Positions 20,418-33,799 of a DNA stretch of 36,487 bases are shown here, piece after piece (positions within the stretch are counted from its first letter, which is position 1; each line of letters opens with the position of its first letter). The notes beneath the pieces are model-generated. The model had not been told where the DNA came from and did no database searches. It saw only the letters and a program-made list of their open reading frames with translations. Source of the DNA: Bacteroidota bacterium. Its GTDB lineage: Bacteria; Bacteroidota; Bacteroidia; J057. A program made the translations under genes and the position numbers. The stretch is taken from the NCBI GenBank assembly GCA_013298365.1, contig JAAFHL010000005.1:1-36487 (forward strand), written 5' to 3'.

Positions 20418-20683
20418 AATTAATTTTTGCAGGTAATTTCTACAAAAATGCAACTTTTTTTGTTAATTGGCAAATAAAAGTCCAAATTTCGGCAAATTTT
20501 CAACTATTCTTCCCTCTAAAAAACCTATTCTTTGTTACTATAAAATGCACATAATTTACTCATAATCAATAAAATAAAAATACAAAACCTCAAAAAATTC
20601 GTTACTAATTCCTTAAAACCTTCCATTCCTACCCCAAAAAAAGCCACGACCTTTGTAATATCAAATAGGAAATGTCTCCTATG

Positions 20684-21622
20684 TTACACAACATCACAAT
20701 GCAAACAACACAAAACATCAAAGCGGAAGCAATTATTCTTTTCAACACGATTTTGGCGACAAAGCAGCTATATGGCATGAGTTATATTGTTAGGCTTGTG
20801 CGAGGTGATAGGTATTTTGAACTCAAAAAAGCCGAACATGAGAAATTGCCTACTTTTGGAACTTTGACAGATAGTTATGAGTACAAAGTCAAAAACCTGA
20901 TAACTTGGTTGCTAAAAAATGGCTATCTTACCATTACGAATTTGCAATATGGTTCTTTGGGTTTGACAGCAAAAGCTTATTTGCTGATGCACAGCGAGGA
21001 AGAATTATTGATTGAGGCTGCGGATTTGAAAACAACTGCGGAAAATCGGGTGCTTGCTGATTCGCTCAAACGGATTCGCAAAGACATCGCCGAAAAAGAG
21101 GAAAAAGCGGTATATGAGATATTTACGGATTGGTCTATGCAGAAATTGATAGATGAAAAACCGAAAAATGTAACAGAATTGAAATTGCTTGCGCCTATGT
21201 CCGAAAGCTATATAGATTCGTATGCCCATCTTTTTTTGAAGGCAATAGAAATGGCAAAGTCAGAAAGTGTGGTTCAGTTGCAGGTACTTTTGCAAGAAAA
21301 AGTAAAAATGCCCGAATATCAAATGATAAAAGCCTTGTTTTTGTCAGGTTATAGTATCGAAAAAATCGGAAAAGAGCGTCAAGTAGAACTAAATACAGTT
21401 CTTTCTTACTTGGGCGACTTGCACAAAACGGGCGAAATAGACCTGAAACCTTGGATTCAGCAGCGTGTAGATGCACCTGTTTTGCACAAAGCCACTACTT
21501 TTTTTGCGCAAACACAAGGGACTTTTCAGGAGGCATTACAGGTCTTAGGGCTTGATTATGAGACATTACGATTGGCAAAGTTGTATGTTAGTAAGGTTGA
21601 GGTAAGAGAGGAGTCGTTTTGA
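20684..21622 (+). CDS. RQC / HRDC / HTH_40-like protein resembling the C-terminal half of a RecQ helicase, without helicase motor
   Basis: RQC-like LYGMSYIVRLVRGDRYFELKKAEHEKLPTFGTL...VKNLITWLLKNGYLTI...LGLTAKAYLLM; HRDC-like EIFTDWSMQKLIDEKPKNVTELKLLAPMSESYIDSYAHLFLKAI; HTH-like ALFLSGYSIEKIGKERQVELNTVLSYLGDLHKTGEIDL. Exact start (20684 or 20702) uncertain. Confidence 0.65.
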   Translation, partial: LHNITMQTTQNIKAEAIILFNTILATKQLYGMSYIVRLVRGDRYFELKKAEHEKLPTFGTLTDSYEYKVKNLITWLLKNGYLTITNLQYGSLGLTAKAYLLMHSEEELLIEAADLKTTAENRVLADSLKRIRKDIAEKEEKAVYEIFTDWSMQKLIDEKPKNVTELKLLAPMSESYIDSYAHLFLKAIEMAKSESVVQLQVLLQEKVKMPEYQMIKALFLSGYSIEKIGKERQVELNTVLSYLGDLHKTGEIDLKPWIQQRVDAPVLHKATTFFAQTQGTFQEALQVLGLDYETLRLAKLYVSKVEVREESF

Positions 21623-21680: not shown

Positions 21681-21764
21681 TGATATTTCAAATCGTGAAT
21701 AAGCTGCCAAACTTTTTGATTGGCATTATCTACAAAATCAATATGTCTGCCATTTCTTTTTTCA

Positions 21765-21903
21765 TATCCCGTTAGGGATAAAATATCGGTAGAAAAATGA
21801 TAAATCCCATAAAATAGCCCGAATTTTCGTGCTTGCACGAAAAATTGGATGAGATGTGGGCGGCTTTTGCGAATTTCTACCGATATTTTGTGCCTACGGC
21901 ACA
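21765..21903. repeat. Symmetric palindromic BIME/REP-like or MITE-like element
   Basis: Hairpin TATCCC-GTTA-GGGATA (21765-21780), AAAATATCGGTAGAAA (21780-21795), central hairpin TTTTCGTG-CTTG-CACGAAAA, TTTCTACCGATATTTT (21874-21889, perfect reverse complement), hairpin TGTGCC-TAC-GGCACA (21889-21903). Confidence 0.8.
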
Positions 21904-21951
21904 GAAAAACAGGTTACGGTTAATTTGGCAGACATGTTGCAAAACAGAAAA

Positions 21952-22515
21952 CTATTTTTTCTCCTCTACTGGTGCAGGAGTCTCTGTCGCTTTTGAAGCT
22001 TCTACCAATTTTTTGATTTCTTCATACAAGTGCTTCTCATCGCCAGGTGCGTAAGTCGTATGTTGAGAAACGATTTTGCGATTGCCATCTAACAAAAATA
22101 CGTGAGGTACATTTGTAACATTCATCAAACGTTTCAATTCTGAATTAGGGTCTTTTAACACCTCATATTCCCATTCCCATGTCTCTACACGAGGTTTTAC
22201 CTCACTTTTGGTACGCTCATCATCAATCGAAACCGCATAAATTTTCACGCCAGTTTCTTTTTGCCATTCTGCATAATGGTCGCTAATGGCATTCAATTCC
22301 TTAATACAAGGCTTGCACCAAGTTGCCCAAAAGTCAATCACGATGGGTTTTCCATCATTTTGTATATCAGCCGTATTAAATGGCATGTCATCTATTGTAA
22401 AAACAGATACATTTGGAACGTCTCCATTTGAAGTTGCTTGTGGTTTTGCCGCCTCCTGCTGTGCCGTAGCAGACAAACCAAGCCCAAGCAGTAGAACTAA
22501 GAATAATTTTTGCAT
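21952..22515 (-). CDS. Thioredoxin/TlpA-family redoxin, secreted
   Basis: Signal peptide MQKLFLVLLLGLGLSATAQ; KPIVIDFWATWCKPCIKELNAISDHYAEW with CxxC active site; NVPHVFLLDGNRKIV. Confidence 0.88.
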   Translation of the reverse strand: MQKLFLVLLLGLGLSATAQQEAAKPQATSNGDVPNVSVFTIDDMPFNTADIQNDGKPIVIDFWATWCKPCIKELNAISDHYAEWQKETGVKIYAVSIDDERTKSEVKPRVETWEWEYEVLKDPNSELKRLMNVTNVPHVFLLDGNRKIVSQHTTYAPGDEKHLYEEIKKLVEASKATETPAPVEEKK

Positions 22516-22567
22516 GGTAATGAACAAAGTTATTTAAGAAATAAAAAACGTGTACTCGTTTCGTACA

Positions 22568-28701: not shown

Positions 28702-29457
28702 ATGAAAAAAATATACTTTTTCTACTTAATATTTGTACTTGCACACATCTCCACTTCTGCCCAAGTCAGCATCAAAGACTCGGCGATAGGCTTGACCATG
28801 ATTGATGTAGGCTACAAAGGTTTTTTCCCTGGTGGAGATATGGCGGATAGATTTGGTTATACCTCGTCTGTTGGGATTCACGCAAGCCACAAGTTTGTCA
28901 ATAATTTCTACCTAAGCACAGGCTTTGACTTTCTTTTTGGTGGAAAGATAAAAGAAACAGGTATTTTGAATAGCATTACCGTCAATGGCTATCTTATTGA
29001 TAATGAGGGGAATTATACGCCGCCTCGTATGCAGGAATCGGGCTTTATGATACCATTTGCCGTAGGAAAAATCTTTGGGGGAACATTGGCAAATAACAAA
29101 AATTCAGGAATTTTTGTGGAGGCGGGAGCGCAATTTATTCAGCACAAAATCTGGTTTAATTTGCCTCGAAATCGTGTGCCTACACTCACAAAACAATATC
29201 AAAAAGGCTATGACCGCCTTACAAATGGCATTGGCGCAACGCAAAGCATTGGTTATCGTTTTTTTGCTAACAATGGCTACGCTAATTTCGTAATAGGATT
29301 GGATTTCAGTCAGAATTTTACCGAAAATAGACGTAGCATAAACCTTGATACAGGATTTAAAGACGATAAAAAACGCTTAGATTTGCTTTATGGCATACGG
29401 GCTTGCTGGACTTTACCTATTTATAAGGAAGCCGCAAGTAAAACCTATTACTATTGA
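28702..29457 (+). CDS. Putative outer membrane beta-barrel protein
   Basis: Signal peptide MKKIYFFYLIFVLAHISTSAQ; alternating amphipathic segments; C-terminal aromatic KTYYY. Confidence 0.6.
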   Translation: MKKIYFFYLIFVLAHISTSAQVSIKDSAIGLTMIDVGYKGFFPGGDMADRFGYTSSVGIHASHKFVNNFYLSTGFDFLFGGKIKETGILNSITVNGYLIDNEGNYTPPRMQESGFMIPFAVGKIFGGTLANNKNSGIFVEAGAQFIQHKIWFNLPRNRVPTLTKQYQKGYDRLTNGIGATQSIGYRFFANNGYANFVIGLDFSQNFTENRRSINLDTGFKDDKKRLDLLYGIRACWTLPIYKEAASKTYYY

Positions 29458-30773
29458 GGTAAATTAGGAATAACAAGGCTAAATGTTGCACCTTCGCCTT
29501 CTATCGAACTTACTTCGATGCTTCCTTTCATTTTGTGAATGGCTTCTTTTACAATGTATAAGCCTAAGCCAGAACCTGAAACTCTGGCATTTGCTCGATA
29601 AAACATCTGAAAAATATTGGGTAAATGTTGTGCAGGGATACCGATTCCGTTGTCTTTTATCATAATAGTTGCTTGTTTTTGGGTCAAATCTATATCAAAA
29701 TGGAGATAAGATGCTACATTACTTTTACGGTAGCGAATGGCATTTGAAATAATATTTCCCAAAATGATATTCAAACGAAAATCATCATTATAAATGGACG
29801 AATTGCCCACTACATTCACTTGCAAATCAATGTTTTCTGCCGATTGCGCATAGCACTGTGATTCAAAAACTTCTCTTATAATACGTGCTAAATCTAAGGG
29901 AACAGGTACAACTTCTAACCGAGAATTACGGGCGTAATGTAAAATATCTTTGATGAAATTATCTAATTTATGCATACTTTTGTCCTGCAAACTCAAGTAA
30001 AGGTCTATATTTTCTCTATCTGTTTTACACAATTCCACCAAACCCATCACAGAGGTAATAGGCGCACGTAAATCATGCGAAACGCTATATACAAATTTAT
30101 CCAATTCCTCATTTGTTTTGCTTAATTGCAAATTCGCTTTTTCGAGTTCTTCATATTTTTCTTGTAAAGCATTTTTGGCTTCCTCCATTTCTGTAAAATG
30201 CTTTTGAATGTGTTTACCATACAGCCAAACAATTGTAGCACAACTTGTAATTACCGTAAAATACATAATGGGGTCAATGACAGCTCGTTCTTTTTCGCCA
30301 ATTGTAGGAATCAAAAACAAAGAAAAATCGGTAAGATAGGCAATAATCGAAAAGAATATAGGCAGGGATAATTGAATAATCAGCCATTTATCACTGTAAA
30401 TTTTAAAGTTGTAAATAGCTAAAATTTCGGCTATGATAAATAGCATATAAGCATTGCTTGTTTTTCCGTACGCCCCTGCAAGCCAAAAGAATAGTAAAAT
30501 AGAAATAAACCAAGAACTCAATCCTGCTAAATCGTGCCAATATTTGTGGCTAAACCACAAGCCGATAAGATACAAAAAACTCGCAATAATGGGAATATAT
30601 ATATAAGGAGTAGGCACATAAAATGCCGCCATCAATGTGCCTATGATGCTATATAAAAAAGATGCAGCAGCCCCTTGATTTGCATTTCTAATTTGCTCTT
30701 TTTTAAACTCAGGATAATCCTCCTTTATCCCTATCATTAAAATTTTTTCTCGGCACAACGAAACTATATTCAT
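29451..30773 (-). CDS. Membrane sensor histidine kinase
   Basis: Multiple TM segments; H-box FVYSVSHDLRAPITSVMGLVEL; N box ILGNIISNAIRYR; G box IKDNGIGIPAQHL, GSGLGLYIVKEAI. Confidence 0.92.
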   Translation of the reverse strand: MNIVSLCREKILMIGIKEDYPEFKKEQIRNANQGAAASFLYSIIGTLMAAFYVPTPYIYIPIIASFLYLIGLWFSHKYWHDLAGLSSWFISILLFFWLAGAYGKTSNAYMLFIIAEILAIYNFKIYSDKWLIIQLSLPIFFSIIAYLTDFSLFLIPTIGEKERAVIDPIMYFTVITSCATIVWLYGKHIQKHFTEMEEAKNALQEKYEELEKANLQLSKTNEELDKFVYSVSHDLRAPITSVMGLVELCKTDRENIDLYLSLQDKSMHKLDNFIKDILHYARNSRLEVVPVPLDLARIIREVFESQCYAQSAENIDLQVNVVGNSSIYNDDFRLNIILGNIISNAIRYRKSNVASYLHFDIDLTQKQATIMIKDNGIGIPAQHLPNIFQMFYRANARVSGSGLGLYIVKEAIHKMKGSIEVSSIEGEGATFSLVIPNLPQ

Positions 30774-30799
30774 TATTAATAATCTATGTGATATGCAGA

Positions 30800-30829
30800 C
30801 AAAAGTACACGTTTTATTTTGTTTTCAAA
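30800..30829 (-). promoter_or_regulatory. Bacteroidota-type promoter upstream of the 29451-30773 kinase
   Basis: On -: TTTG, spacer of about 18 nt, TACTTTTG, upstream of the start at 30773. Confidence 0.5.
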
Positions 30830-30920
30830 TAAAATAAGAAAATATGATTTATGTTCACAAATCTATGACAAAAATCGTTCCTACTTATGATTGTAATTAT
30901 ATTCTTGAAGCATGCAAGCA

Positions 30921-32237
30921 CTATAAGGTACTTTTTTTTAGATACAAAGAAACGCTTGTCCCTTTACCTTCTTCGCTGTCTATTCTAATTTGCCCTTGAT
31001 TTTTTTCGATAAACTCTTTACATAACATCAAACCCAATCCTGTACCTTTTTCTTTTGCTGTACCTTTAGTTGAAACAACAGGTTCACTATCAAATAATTT
31101 TTCTAATTGTGTTTTTGTTATACCTATGCCTGAATCTGTTACATTTATTTTATACATTTGGGAACTTTCATCATACAACCCATTTATCAAGATTTTCCCT
31201 TGTTGATGCGAAAATTTAATCGCATTTGCTACTAAATTTCTCAATATCAACTCAAAATGGTCTGAGTTTATCCAAACGCTAATCGTTGTATCTACCTGAT
31301 TTTCTAAACTAATTTTCTTATTTTCAGCCGTTTCAGAGAGTACATCAAAGACCCTATTTACAACGCTTGATACGTGCATACTTTTTTGCAAAGGTTCTTC
31401 TTTTTTTTGCATAGAAATGCCCCAATGCAATAAATTTTCCAAGGTAGATAAAGCGTTTTTATTACTCAATCGAATACGTTTGACAATGCTAATGCGTGTA
31501 GCATCGTCTATATCCGCACTTTCCAACAATTCCATCAGCCCTTCTATGCTATTAAAAGGCTGCCGTAAATCGTGTCCGATGATAGAAAAAAGGCGGTTTT
31601 TGAGGGTGTCGGCTTCTGTAAGTGCAATGGTTTTGCTGATTAGTTCGTTATTTTTTTCCTGTATATCATCTTTATATTTGTAAATTTCTCGCCTCAACTC
31701 GTTGAGGGCATTACTTAACAAGGCAATAATTACGGCAAGATTAATGAAAAAAATAATGTCTTTGTGTTTTGGAAGAGGATAGTCCACAATGTCGTAATAA
31801 TTGATGATTTGAATCGCTGCAAAGCACACAAGCCCTGCAATAGTGGGTATGATAGTAGAGACTTTTTCATGAAAATCGGCATACGCAATCACCATTGAAA
31901 TAATAATAATATACTCTACCAGTAGTTCTCCTTTGGAAATAACCGATAAGATTGATAAATAGGTGAGTGTAACATAGTAAATAATATAACGAAGCGCATC
32001 GAATTTTCCTACATGGATTAAATAGAGTATAAAAAATAAACAACCTATATAGCAAGCATAAGTATAAACATACAACTTCAAGTCCAATATTAGCCAAATG
32101 ACAATCATTGTGCTGACGAGGGCATGAAGTATAGACAAATTGACAACCCTTATTTTGGCTTTTTCGTCAATGCCTGTGGCATGATGCGTGCCTATATTAA
32201 TGATGCTATTAACTATTTTTTGAAAAAACAATATCAT
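30921..32237 (-). CDS. Membrane sensor histidine kinase
   Basis: TM-rich N-terminus; H-box LFSIIGHDLRQPFNSIEGLMELL; LILRNLVANAIKFSHQ; VTDSGIGITKTQLEKLF; GTGLGLMLCKEFIEKN. Confidence 0.92.
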   Translation of the reverse strand: MILFFQKIVNSIINIGTHHATGIDEKAKIRVVNLSILHALVSTMIVIWLILDLKLYVYTYACYIGCLFFILYLIHVGKFDALRYIIYYVTLTYLSILSVISKGELLVEYIIIISMVIAYADFHEKVSTIIPTIAGLVCFAAIQIINYYDIVDYPLPKHKDIIFFINLAVIIALLSNALNELRREIYKYKDDIQEKNNELISKTIALTEADTLKNRLFSIIGHDLRQPFNSIEGLMELLESADIDDATRISIVKRIRLSNKNALSTLENLLHWGISMQKKEEPLQKSMHVSSVVNRVFDVLSETAENKKISLENQVDTTISVWINSDHFELILRNLVANAIKFSHQQGKILINGLYDESSQMYKINVTDSGIGITKTQLEKLFDSEPVVSTKGTAKEKGTGLGLMLCKEFIEKNQGQIRIDSEEGKGTSVSLYLKKSTL

Positions 32238-32250
32238 TTTTAAATTGTAT

Positions 32251-33543
32251 TTAATTTTGACTATTAGGGATTGTAATGGCAAAAATAGTTCCTTTCCCTT
32301 CTTCCGATTGCACTTCTATTTGTCCTTTCATTTTGTTTAACGCCTCTTTTACAATGTATAAACCCAATCCTGACCCCGAAACTCTGGCATTTGCCCTATA
32401 AAACATTTGAAAGATATTGGTTAAATGCTCCGCAGGAATCCCTATCCCATTATCAGCAATCGTCATTTTTGTTACATCTGGCTGTAAATCTACTTCAAAA
32501 TGCAAAAAAGAAGGATTTGCTTTAGGGTTTCTATATCGAATGGCATTGGAAATAATGTTGGCAAAGATAATGTTTAAGCGAAACGCATCTCCATAAAGTG
32601 GGCTTGTACCCTGCACTTTTATCTCAAATTGCATGTCTTCGGCAGCAGATGCATACGCCTGATTTTCAAAGTTTTCTTTTATGATTGCAGGTAAATCTAA
32701 GACAACATGTAGCACTTCTAAACGGGAATTGCGGGCATAATTCAGAATGTCTTTGATGAAATTATCTAACTTATTCATGCTTTTGCGTTGCAAACCCAAA
32801 TACAAGTCTATATTTTCTCTGTCTGTGCCACATAAATCTACCAAACCCATCACAGAAGTAATGGGCGCACGCAAATCATGCGACACACTATATACAAATC
32901 TGTCAAGTTCTTCATTTGTTTTGTGTAACTCTGTATTCGCTTTCTCCAATTCGCCATTTTTCCTTTCTATATAGTCTTTAAATTTGTAAATCTCTGTCCG
33001 CAATTTCATTATCGTACCCAATATTAATGAAACTGACATCGAAAGGTAAACATAGTATAAAATCTCTTTATTTTGAGGTAAAGGATAATGTACAATCCCA
33101 TAATGATTGATGAGTTGTGCAATCGTAAAGAAAATCAATCCAATAATAAGTGGTTTAATCTGTGCCTTTTCCACTTGAAAATCGGCATAAGTGATGATAA
33201 TAGACGCAATTATAAAATATTCTATCAATAATTGCCCTTGAGATAAGATAGAAAGGATAAACAAGTAAACCAATGAAACATAGTAAAGATTGAATCTTAC
33301 CCAAGTAAACTTATTTTGGTATATTAAAAAGACGCAGAAAAATAATAGACTAATATAAATGGAATAGATTATTACATATAATGAAGACTCTAGCACAAAT
33401 AACATTAAAATAAATGTACCCACAATTCCTTGGAAAAGAGACTGTAATACCATTTTTACCTTGGCTTTCTCCTCCATTGTGGAAATATCTTTTATGGCTT
33501 TTTCAAATAACTGTTCTATCCTATGTTGAAGATATGATAACAT
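32251..33543 (-). CDS. Membrane sensor histidine kinase, paralogue of the 29451-30773 kinase
   Basis: H-box FVYSVSHDLRAPITSVMGLVDLC; IFANIISNAIRYR; IADNGIGIPAEHL; GSGLGLYIVKEALNKMKGQIEVQSEEGKGT. Confidence 0.92.
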   Translation of the reverse strand: MLSYLQHRIEQLFEKAIKDISTMEEKAKVKMVLQSLFQGIVGTFILMLFVLESSLYVIIYSIYISLLFFCVFLIYQNKFTWVRFNLYYVSLVYLFILSILSQGQLLIEYFIIASIIITYADFQVEKAQIKPLIIGLIFFTIAQLINHYGIVHYPLPQNKEILYYVYLSMSVSLILGTIMKLRTEIYKFKDYIERKNGELEKANTELHKTNEELDRFVYSVSHDLRAPITSVMGLVDLCGTDRENIDLYLGLQRKSMNKLDNFIKDILNYARNSRLEVLHVVLDLPAIIKENFENQAYASAAEDMQFEIKVQGTSPLYGDAFRLNIIFANIISNAIRYRNPKANPSFLHFEVDLQPDVTKMTIADNGIGIPAEHLTNIFQMFYRANARVSGSGLGLYIVKEALNKMKGQIEVQSEEGKGTIFAITIPNSQN

Positions 33544-33799
33544 TAGTTTGATACGGTTTTCCAAGATGAACATCTTGATGGTTAGTTATATAAAGAAAAA
33601 GAACAGTTTCTTTTCCTTCTTCCGATAGCACTTCTATTTGCCCCTTCATTTTGTTTAACGCTTCTTCTACGATAAATGTAGAAGCAACAACTCGCCCCCA
33701 ATTTACATTACAAATTTGGTGTTTTTTTATAGGTAAAAATGTAGGCTTAACGCCGATATTTAATATTTTTTGCCCAAATAGATGAAAGTGATTTTGCAT
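33521..33799 (-). pseudogene. Internally deleted histidine kinase relic (N-terminal leader fused in frame to the C-terminal tail)
   Basis: QKILNIGVKPTFLPIKKHQICNVNWGRVVAS aligns with the kinase N-terminus EKILMIGIKEDYPEFKKEQIRNANQGAAAS; then VEEALNKMKGQIEVLSEEGKE aligns with the tail VKEALNKMKGQIEVQSEEGKG. Sensor, H-box and most of the ATPase are missing. Confidence 0.72.

Follow-up and report, generated by a model that had tools for sequence, protein, structure and literature searches.

The closest described relatives of the element discussed here are the REPINs or BIMEs and the REPtrons (PMC3116915, PMC8266576), which, like it, are high-copy intergenic hairpin units arranged as inverted pairs, with mosaic reassortment and with half-unit arrays around a Y1 (HUH) gene, the latter seen in our case in other genomes. 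A canonical REP has its conserved GTAG immediately 5' of the palindrome or at most about 2 nt away from it (PMC8266576). Among the Y1 transposases, TnpA subclass 1.2 is listed as having neither REP sequences nor IS200-type ends (PMC6006769). MITEs (reviewed in PMC10969869) form the second group for comparison, and they share with our element the short, non-coding sequence, the terminal inverted repeats, the target duplications, the many copies, and a related IS remnant in the genome. The element lies in a 36,487-nt stretch (the window) of a 5.09-Mb draft Bacteroidota genome (630 contigs, 93.55% complete). It probably represents a MITE that encloses a REP/REPIN-like core, with several MITE shells sharing the core, half-units linked to Y1 genes, and spread through DDE transposition.

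The core occupies positions 21766-21902. It begins with the left outer hairpin (ATCCC-GTTA-GGGAT, 21766-21779), followed by a conserved 16-mer tag, AAAATATCGGTAGAAA, on the forward strand (21780-21795), a central hairpin with a CUUG loop (TTTTCGTG-CTTG-CACGAAAA, 21824-21843), the inverted tag TTTCTACCGATATTTT on the reverse strand (21874-21889), which is the perfect reverse complement of AAAATATCGGTAGAAA, and the right outer hairpin (GTGCC-TAC-GGCAC, 21890-21902). The central hairpin of the core lies between two inverted half-units, each with the conserved tag CTACCGATATTTT ahead of a small hairpin. The symmetric three-hairpin structure with 16-mers abutting the outer hairpins, as described in the first-pass annotation, is borne out by the window sequence, its fold, and the aligned copies. 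A 16-bp perfect inverted repeat with a spacer of 20-130 bp is unique in the window and appeared in none of 100 first-order simulations, and the fold of the core is much more stable than that of shuffled sequences (z = -6.75 as DNA and -7.25 as RNA). Of the 16 tag pairs, 12 are invariant in both arms across an alignment of 15 copies. The arms of the outer hairpins vary among copies (GTGCC, GCCCC, ATCCC, GTCCC, and GTCGC), with pairing kept through compensatory changes. The constraint on the 16-mer is on its sequence, and that on the outer hairpins is on their structure.

The first-pass annotation placed the element at 21765-21903, a range that takes in just the core; the element itself is longer, and its limits are set by the terminal inverted repeats and the target duplication. 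The shell alignment and the duplication place the whole composite, a REP-like core in a shell-A MITE, at 21739-21939 (201 bp, without an open reading frame of its own). Its left terminal inverted repeat (CAATATGTCTGCCAT, 21739-21753) is an end common to shell-A copies and an IS4-family remnant, and its right one (TTGGCAGACATGTTG, 21925-21939) is likewise common to shell-A copies. Outside these lie the 6-bp target duplications typical of shell-A copies, CAAAAT on the left (21733-21738) and CAAAAC, with one mismatch, on the right (21940-21945). The composite sits between two convergent genes: one on the forward strand with RQC, HRDC, and HTH_40 domains, the C-terminal part of RecQ (20672-21622), and one on the reverse strand of the TlpA/AhpC-TSA thioredoxin family (21952-22527). 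The former resembles a solitary RecQ C-terminal part from which the helicase domain is absent. In the loci compared, relatives of the TlpA gene were present and a homologue of the RQC gene was absent, and an empty site for the window copy was not found. Elsewhere in the window, the reverse strand carries a two-gene Gabija anti-phage system (14639-18627), composed of GajA (AAA plus OLD-type TOPRIM; PADLOC E = 1e-219) and GajB (UvrD-like helicase; PADLOC E = 7e-190). It also carries, at 29451-33573, three neighboring related genes that by eye resemble membrane histidine kinases, two of the three having C-terminal parts that closely resemble each other.

The core is repeated throughout the genome. 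Allowing up to two mismatches, the 16-mer matches 210 places, compared with 38 for a reversed control pattern, and a covariance model of the core yields 148 matches with both strands counted. From loci fetched region by region in the draft genome we collected 83 distinct paired inverted elements, most of which measure 109-111 bp from outer tag end to outer tag end. The idea that the combination might occur only once, which would have spoken against a mobile repeat, is thereby dismissed, and the proposed count of singles and inverted pairs shows that pairs dominate: the 83 pairs compare with 14 unpaired tag matches, several of which are truncated by contig ends, several of which are degenerate halves, and some of which are chance matches within coding sequence. 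In seven loci (L010, L012, L026, L027, L160, L163, and L168), a second repeat, TTGTCATTGAGC....CGAAATGC, lies exactly in the outer hairpin loop and leaves the stem intact; this repeat is found in 46 places in the genome, and its reversed control in none. Insertion sequences that insert in REP hairpins, such as ISPpu9 (PMC8450116), provide a comparison.

The paired copies are mainly intergenic (one of the 83 lies inside an open reading frame), and one could assume that the core is cargo retained for a role in RNA or DNA, such as a bidirectional terminator or a stabilizer of mRNA 3' ends, and was for this reason taken up by different MITEs. The strong strand fold, the covarying hairpins, the intergenic placement, and the position of the window copy between convergent genes agree with this explanation. 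However, the copies have 16 convergent, 14 divergent, and 38 tandem gene contexts, as judged from open reading frames of at least 110 amino acids and not from annotation, and a terminator or convergent-gene role was rejected given this absence of an orientation bias. Furthermore, no Rfam family fits the core at the gathering threshold, where a tRNA was the only match in the window, and the substrate of a Y1 enzyme would also show covariation in its hairpins. We consider a functional cargo very unlikely.

Outside the hairpins, the copies sort into shells with unrelated ends, and the core is common to at least five of them. The ends read CAACATGTCTGCCA in shell A, GTAATG...ATAAAATAAAGTA in shells B and C, CTGATACTAACGGATTGTGTG in shell D, GGTTACGTTTCAAAGTGGAGAC in shell E, and ATGCGAATCAAGGG in shell F, and terminal inverted repeats are present in all shells from A to F. 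Target duplications were scored by comparing left and right flanks, with the expectation taken from permuted pairings. In shell A, for which one mismatch was allowed, a 6-bp duplication is found in 17 of 26 copies, compared with 1.8 expected. Shells B and C have a 3-bp duplication in 14 of 17 copies (7.4 expected); this expectation is as high as it is because most of the duplications are TAA, and the signal in part reflects a preference for TAA. The remaining samples are small: an 8-bp duplication in four of six shell-E copies (1.3 expected), a 5-bp duplication in all four shell-F copies (1.5 expected), and an 8-bp duplication in two of six shell-D copies (0.5 expected), the last a weak signal. 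The whole element, with its terminal inverted repeats, fixed-length duplication, short length, and lack of coding sequence, is a MITE by these features. IS200/IS605 elements, in contrast, have neither terminal inverted repeats nor target duplications, and the presence of both features here speaks against a non-autonomous element of this type, even if hairpins near the ends are a shared trait. The present element also departs from described MITEs in that the center is constant and the ends vary, with at least five families of unrelated ends having a single core.

Shell and core are separable in both directions. A-type ends surround core-less sequence in IS4-family transposase remnants on two contigs (C614 and C46); the match to the NCBIfam IS4 model has E = 7.9e-30 and falls below the curated cut-off for a whole protein. 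The degenerate transposase with shell-A ends links shell A to the IS4 family; however, the remnant copies are without the core, and an intact member was not found. For none of the shells did this draft genome yield an intact DDE partner: shell A is matched by degenerate remnants only, and shells B to F by no assigned transposase. Conversely, a core copy without a shell (C502:2402-2530) is located in the homing endonuclease region of a DnaB intein, where the insert of 129 bp, or 43 codons, is in frame and the reading frame stays open. The DnaB inteins of relatives do not have this core copy, and they differ there in length and sequence; this suggests that a local loss accompanied the insertion and that the event was not clean, and we rejected this copy as a clean empty-site case. 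The halves of the core are also mosaic: half-core type 1 is found in all shells from A to E and type 0 in the same shells except D, and four chimeras (C96:3380, C224, C314, and C76) have two arms from different shells.

These observations bear on the possibility that the element is an ordinary MITE, its core a subterminal or internal remainder of one ancestral IS and its likeness to a Y1 unit coincidental or secondary. The terminal inverted repeats, the target duplications, and the IS4-family remnant with the same ends are all compatible with this possibility, as is a weakly similar stretch, with four mismatches to the 16-mer, close to one end of a shell-A element that has no core. However, the sharing of one core by five shells whose ends are unrelated and whose duplications differ in length, together with the existence of core-less shell-A elements, argues against descent from a single IS, and so does the clustering of the half-unit at Y1 genes described below. 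Of the explanations considered, we regard this as the least probable.

The half-unit, CTACC-RANATTT plus a hairpin, is also found in other Bacteroidota: the tag plus hairpin has matches across several families of the class, and in other genomes the half-unit borders several Y1 genes, its tag facing the gene and its hairpin pointing outward. In 80 loci chosen by the subclass 1.2 Y1 protein alone, 79 half-unit matches at E <= 0.001 are no more than 1 kb from the Y1 gene and one lies elsewhere (binomial p ~8e-45, with matches inside one array not being independent of each other). At least one match is present in 25 of the 80 loci, and presence of the unit is clustered on the Y1 protein tree, requiring seven changes compared with 25 when shuffled. 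Pairing is kept in 98.2% of cells in half-unit hairpins from other genomes (52 both-side changes, compared with 9.8 in shuffles) and in 98.7% of cells in those around Y1 genes (104 compared with 24.6), in alignments that were both fitted to a hairpin model and are biased towards pairing. The unit-linked proteins share with subclass 1.2 (PMC6006769) an occurrence in Bacteroidota, a DH[IVL]H-type motif, and the Y---Q--HH signature, and they score above the cut-off of the NCBIfam IS200/IS605 model and below that of REP_Tyr_transpos. In contrast to the published listing of this subclass, many members here sit in arrays of tag plus hairpin. An array of a variant unit, CTACGAAGATTT joined to a GGGC/GCCC hairpin, surrounds a Y1 gene in the sister species (G001). 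G001 and three more genomes (G006, G027, and G046) show the paired-core anatomy with other hairpins. A regular array also adjoins a subclass 1.2 Y1 gene in Arcicella aurantiaca (L253, 3206-3950), where GTTCCTACGGAAC and CGGATTAAAATCCG hairpins take turns and the inner part repeats about every 74 bp.

The window's own genome encodes seven Y1 genes, and in this draft the half-unit flanks none of them, so the link to Y1 rests on other genomes; given the incomplete assembly, a unit-flanked Y1 gene may be missing. The clade that holds this genome's subclass 1.2 protein (39 rows) does not carry the unit; in it the same hairpin form is joined to a different tag, e.g., ATCGGTC. Hairpins of the Arcicella type occur in this clade too, with a tag other than CTACC, and several of the seven Y1 genes (L031-L037) are bordered by other hairpin repeats, such as GCGTAGGGGTTGCAACCCCTACGC at L031. 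The first-pass annotation had anticipated a mobilizing transposase in the genome and a Y1/RAYT gene flanked by the same unit: the genome does hold Y1 genes and an IS4-family remnant with the element's own ends, but the expected flanking failed for all seven Y1 genes, movement by them through flanking units was rejected, and the evidence for movement in this genome is of the DDE type. The annotation's open choice between a REP/BIME-like element and a MITE resolves into both, a REP-like inverted-pair core in a MITE shell, but without the canonical GTAG position or a class 2 enzyme. In the core some 10 nt separate the hairpin from CTAC on its 5' side, and GTAG is on the 3' side, a polarity and position that led us to reject a canonical GTAG-REP; the enzyme linked to the half-unit is not a class 2 TnpA-REP; and, in contrast to REPINs, the pairs in this genome are inside DDE-type shells with target duplications. 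Because GTAG position, enzyme class, and Y1 linkage in the own genome all deviate, we call the core REP-like and not a strict REP. Keyword searches of open-licence papers did not find a published description of the CTACC tag plus hairpin unit.

A plain BIME or REPIN, in which the 139-bp core alone is mobile as single-stranded DNA through a Y1/RAYT enzyme acting in trans, with the outer repeats extraneous to the mobile unit, would account for the inverted pairs of tag plus hairpin, the linkage to Y1 genes in other genomes, the paired anatomy in G006, G027, and G046, and the shell-less copy in the intein. However, nearly all copies have terminal inverted repeats beyond the hairpins and a duplication length specific to the shell, and the Y1 genes of the same genome are without a flanking unit. 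We therefore judge this explanation unlikely.

If the element is a REP/REPIN-like core nested in MITE shells, the most likely origin of the core is in a subclass 1.2 Y1 system of Bacteroidota, whose enzyme would most likely read the tag plus hairpin in single-stranded DNA; the linkage in other genomes suggests that the core owes its formation or movement to a Y1 enzyme. The core would then have become the center of five or more MITE families that are unrelated to each other and have ends resembling those of different DDE-type ISs, and ordinary transposition by DDE enzymes would multiply the whole element, producing duplications of 3, 5, 6, or 8 bp. The window copy, in shell A and inserted between two convergent genes, may have been moved by an IS4-type transposase, since shell-A ends are also found on the IS4-family remnant. 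More tentatively, we envisage a nested element with two engines, in which subclass 1.2 hairpin modules repeatedly became the center of unrelated DDE-type MITEs, spread without their cognate Y1 enzyme, and had their halves swapped between shells at the hairpin/tag module; in this scenario, which we regard as possible, a REP-like superfamily of Bacteroidota with the CTACC tag would have its missing partners in the subclass 1.2 enzymes.

Two mobility systems seem to be combined in one element. Y1 subclass 1.2, described without a REP partner, thereby gains a candidate DNA substrate, and a REP-like module serving as the core common to unrelated MITE families would provide a route for REPs without an enzyme of their own to persist and spread. 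The mosaic repeats in Bacteroidota genomes are layered, and target duplications, not hairpins, should define the boundaries of such elements.
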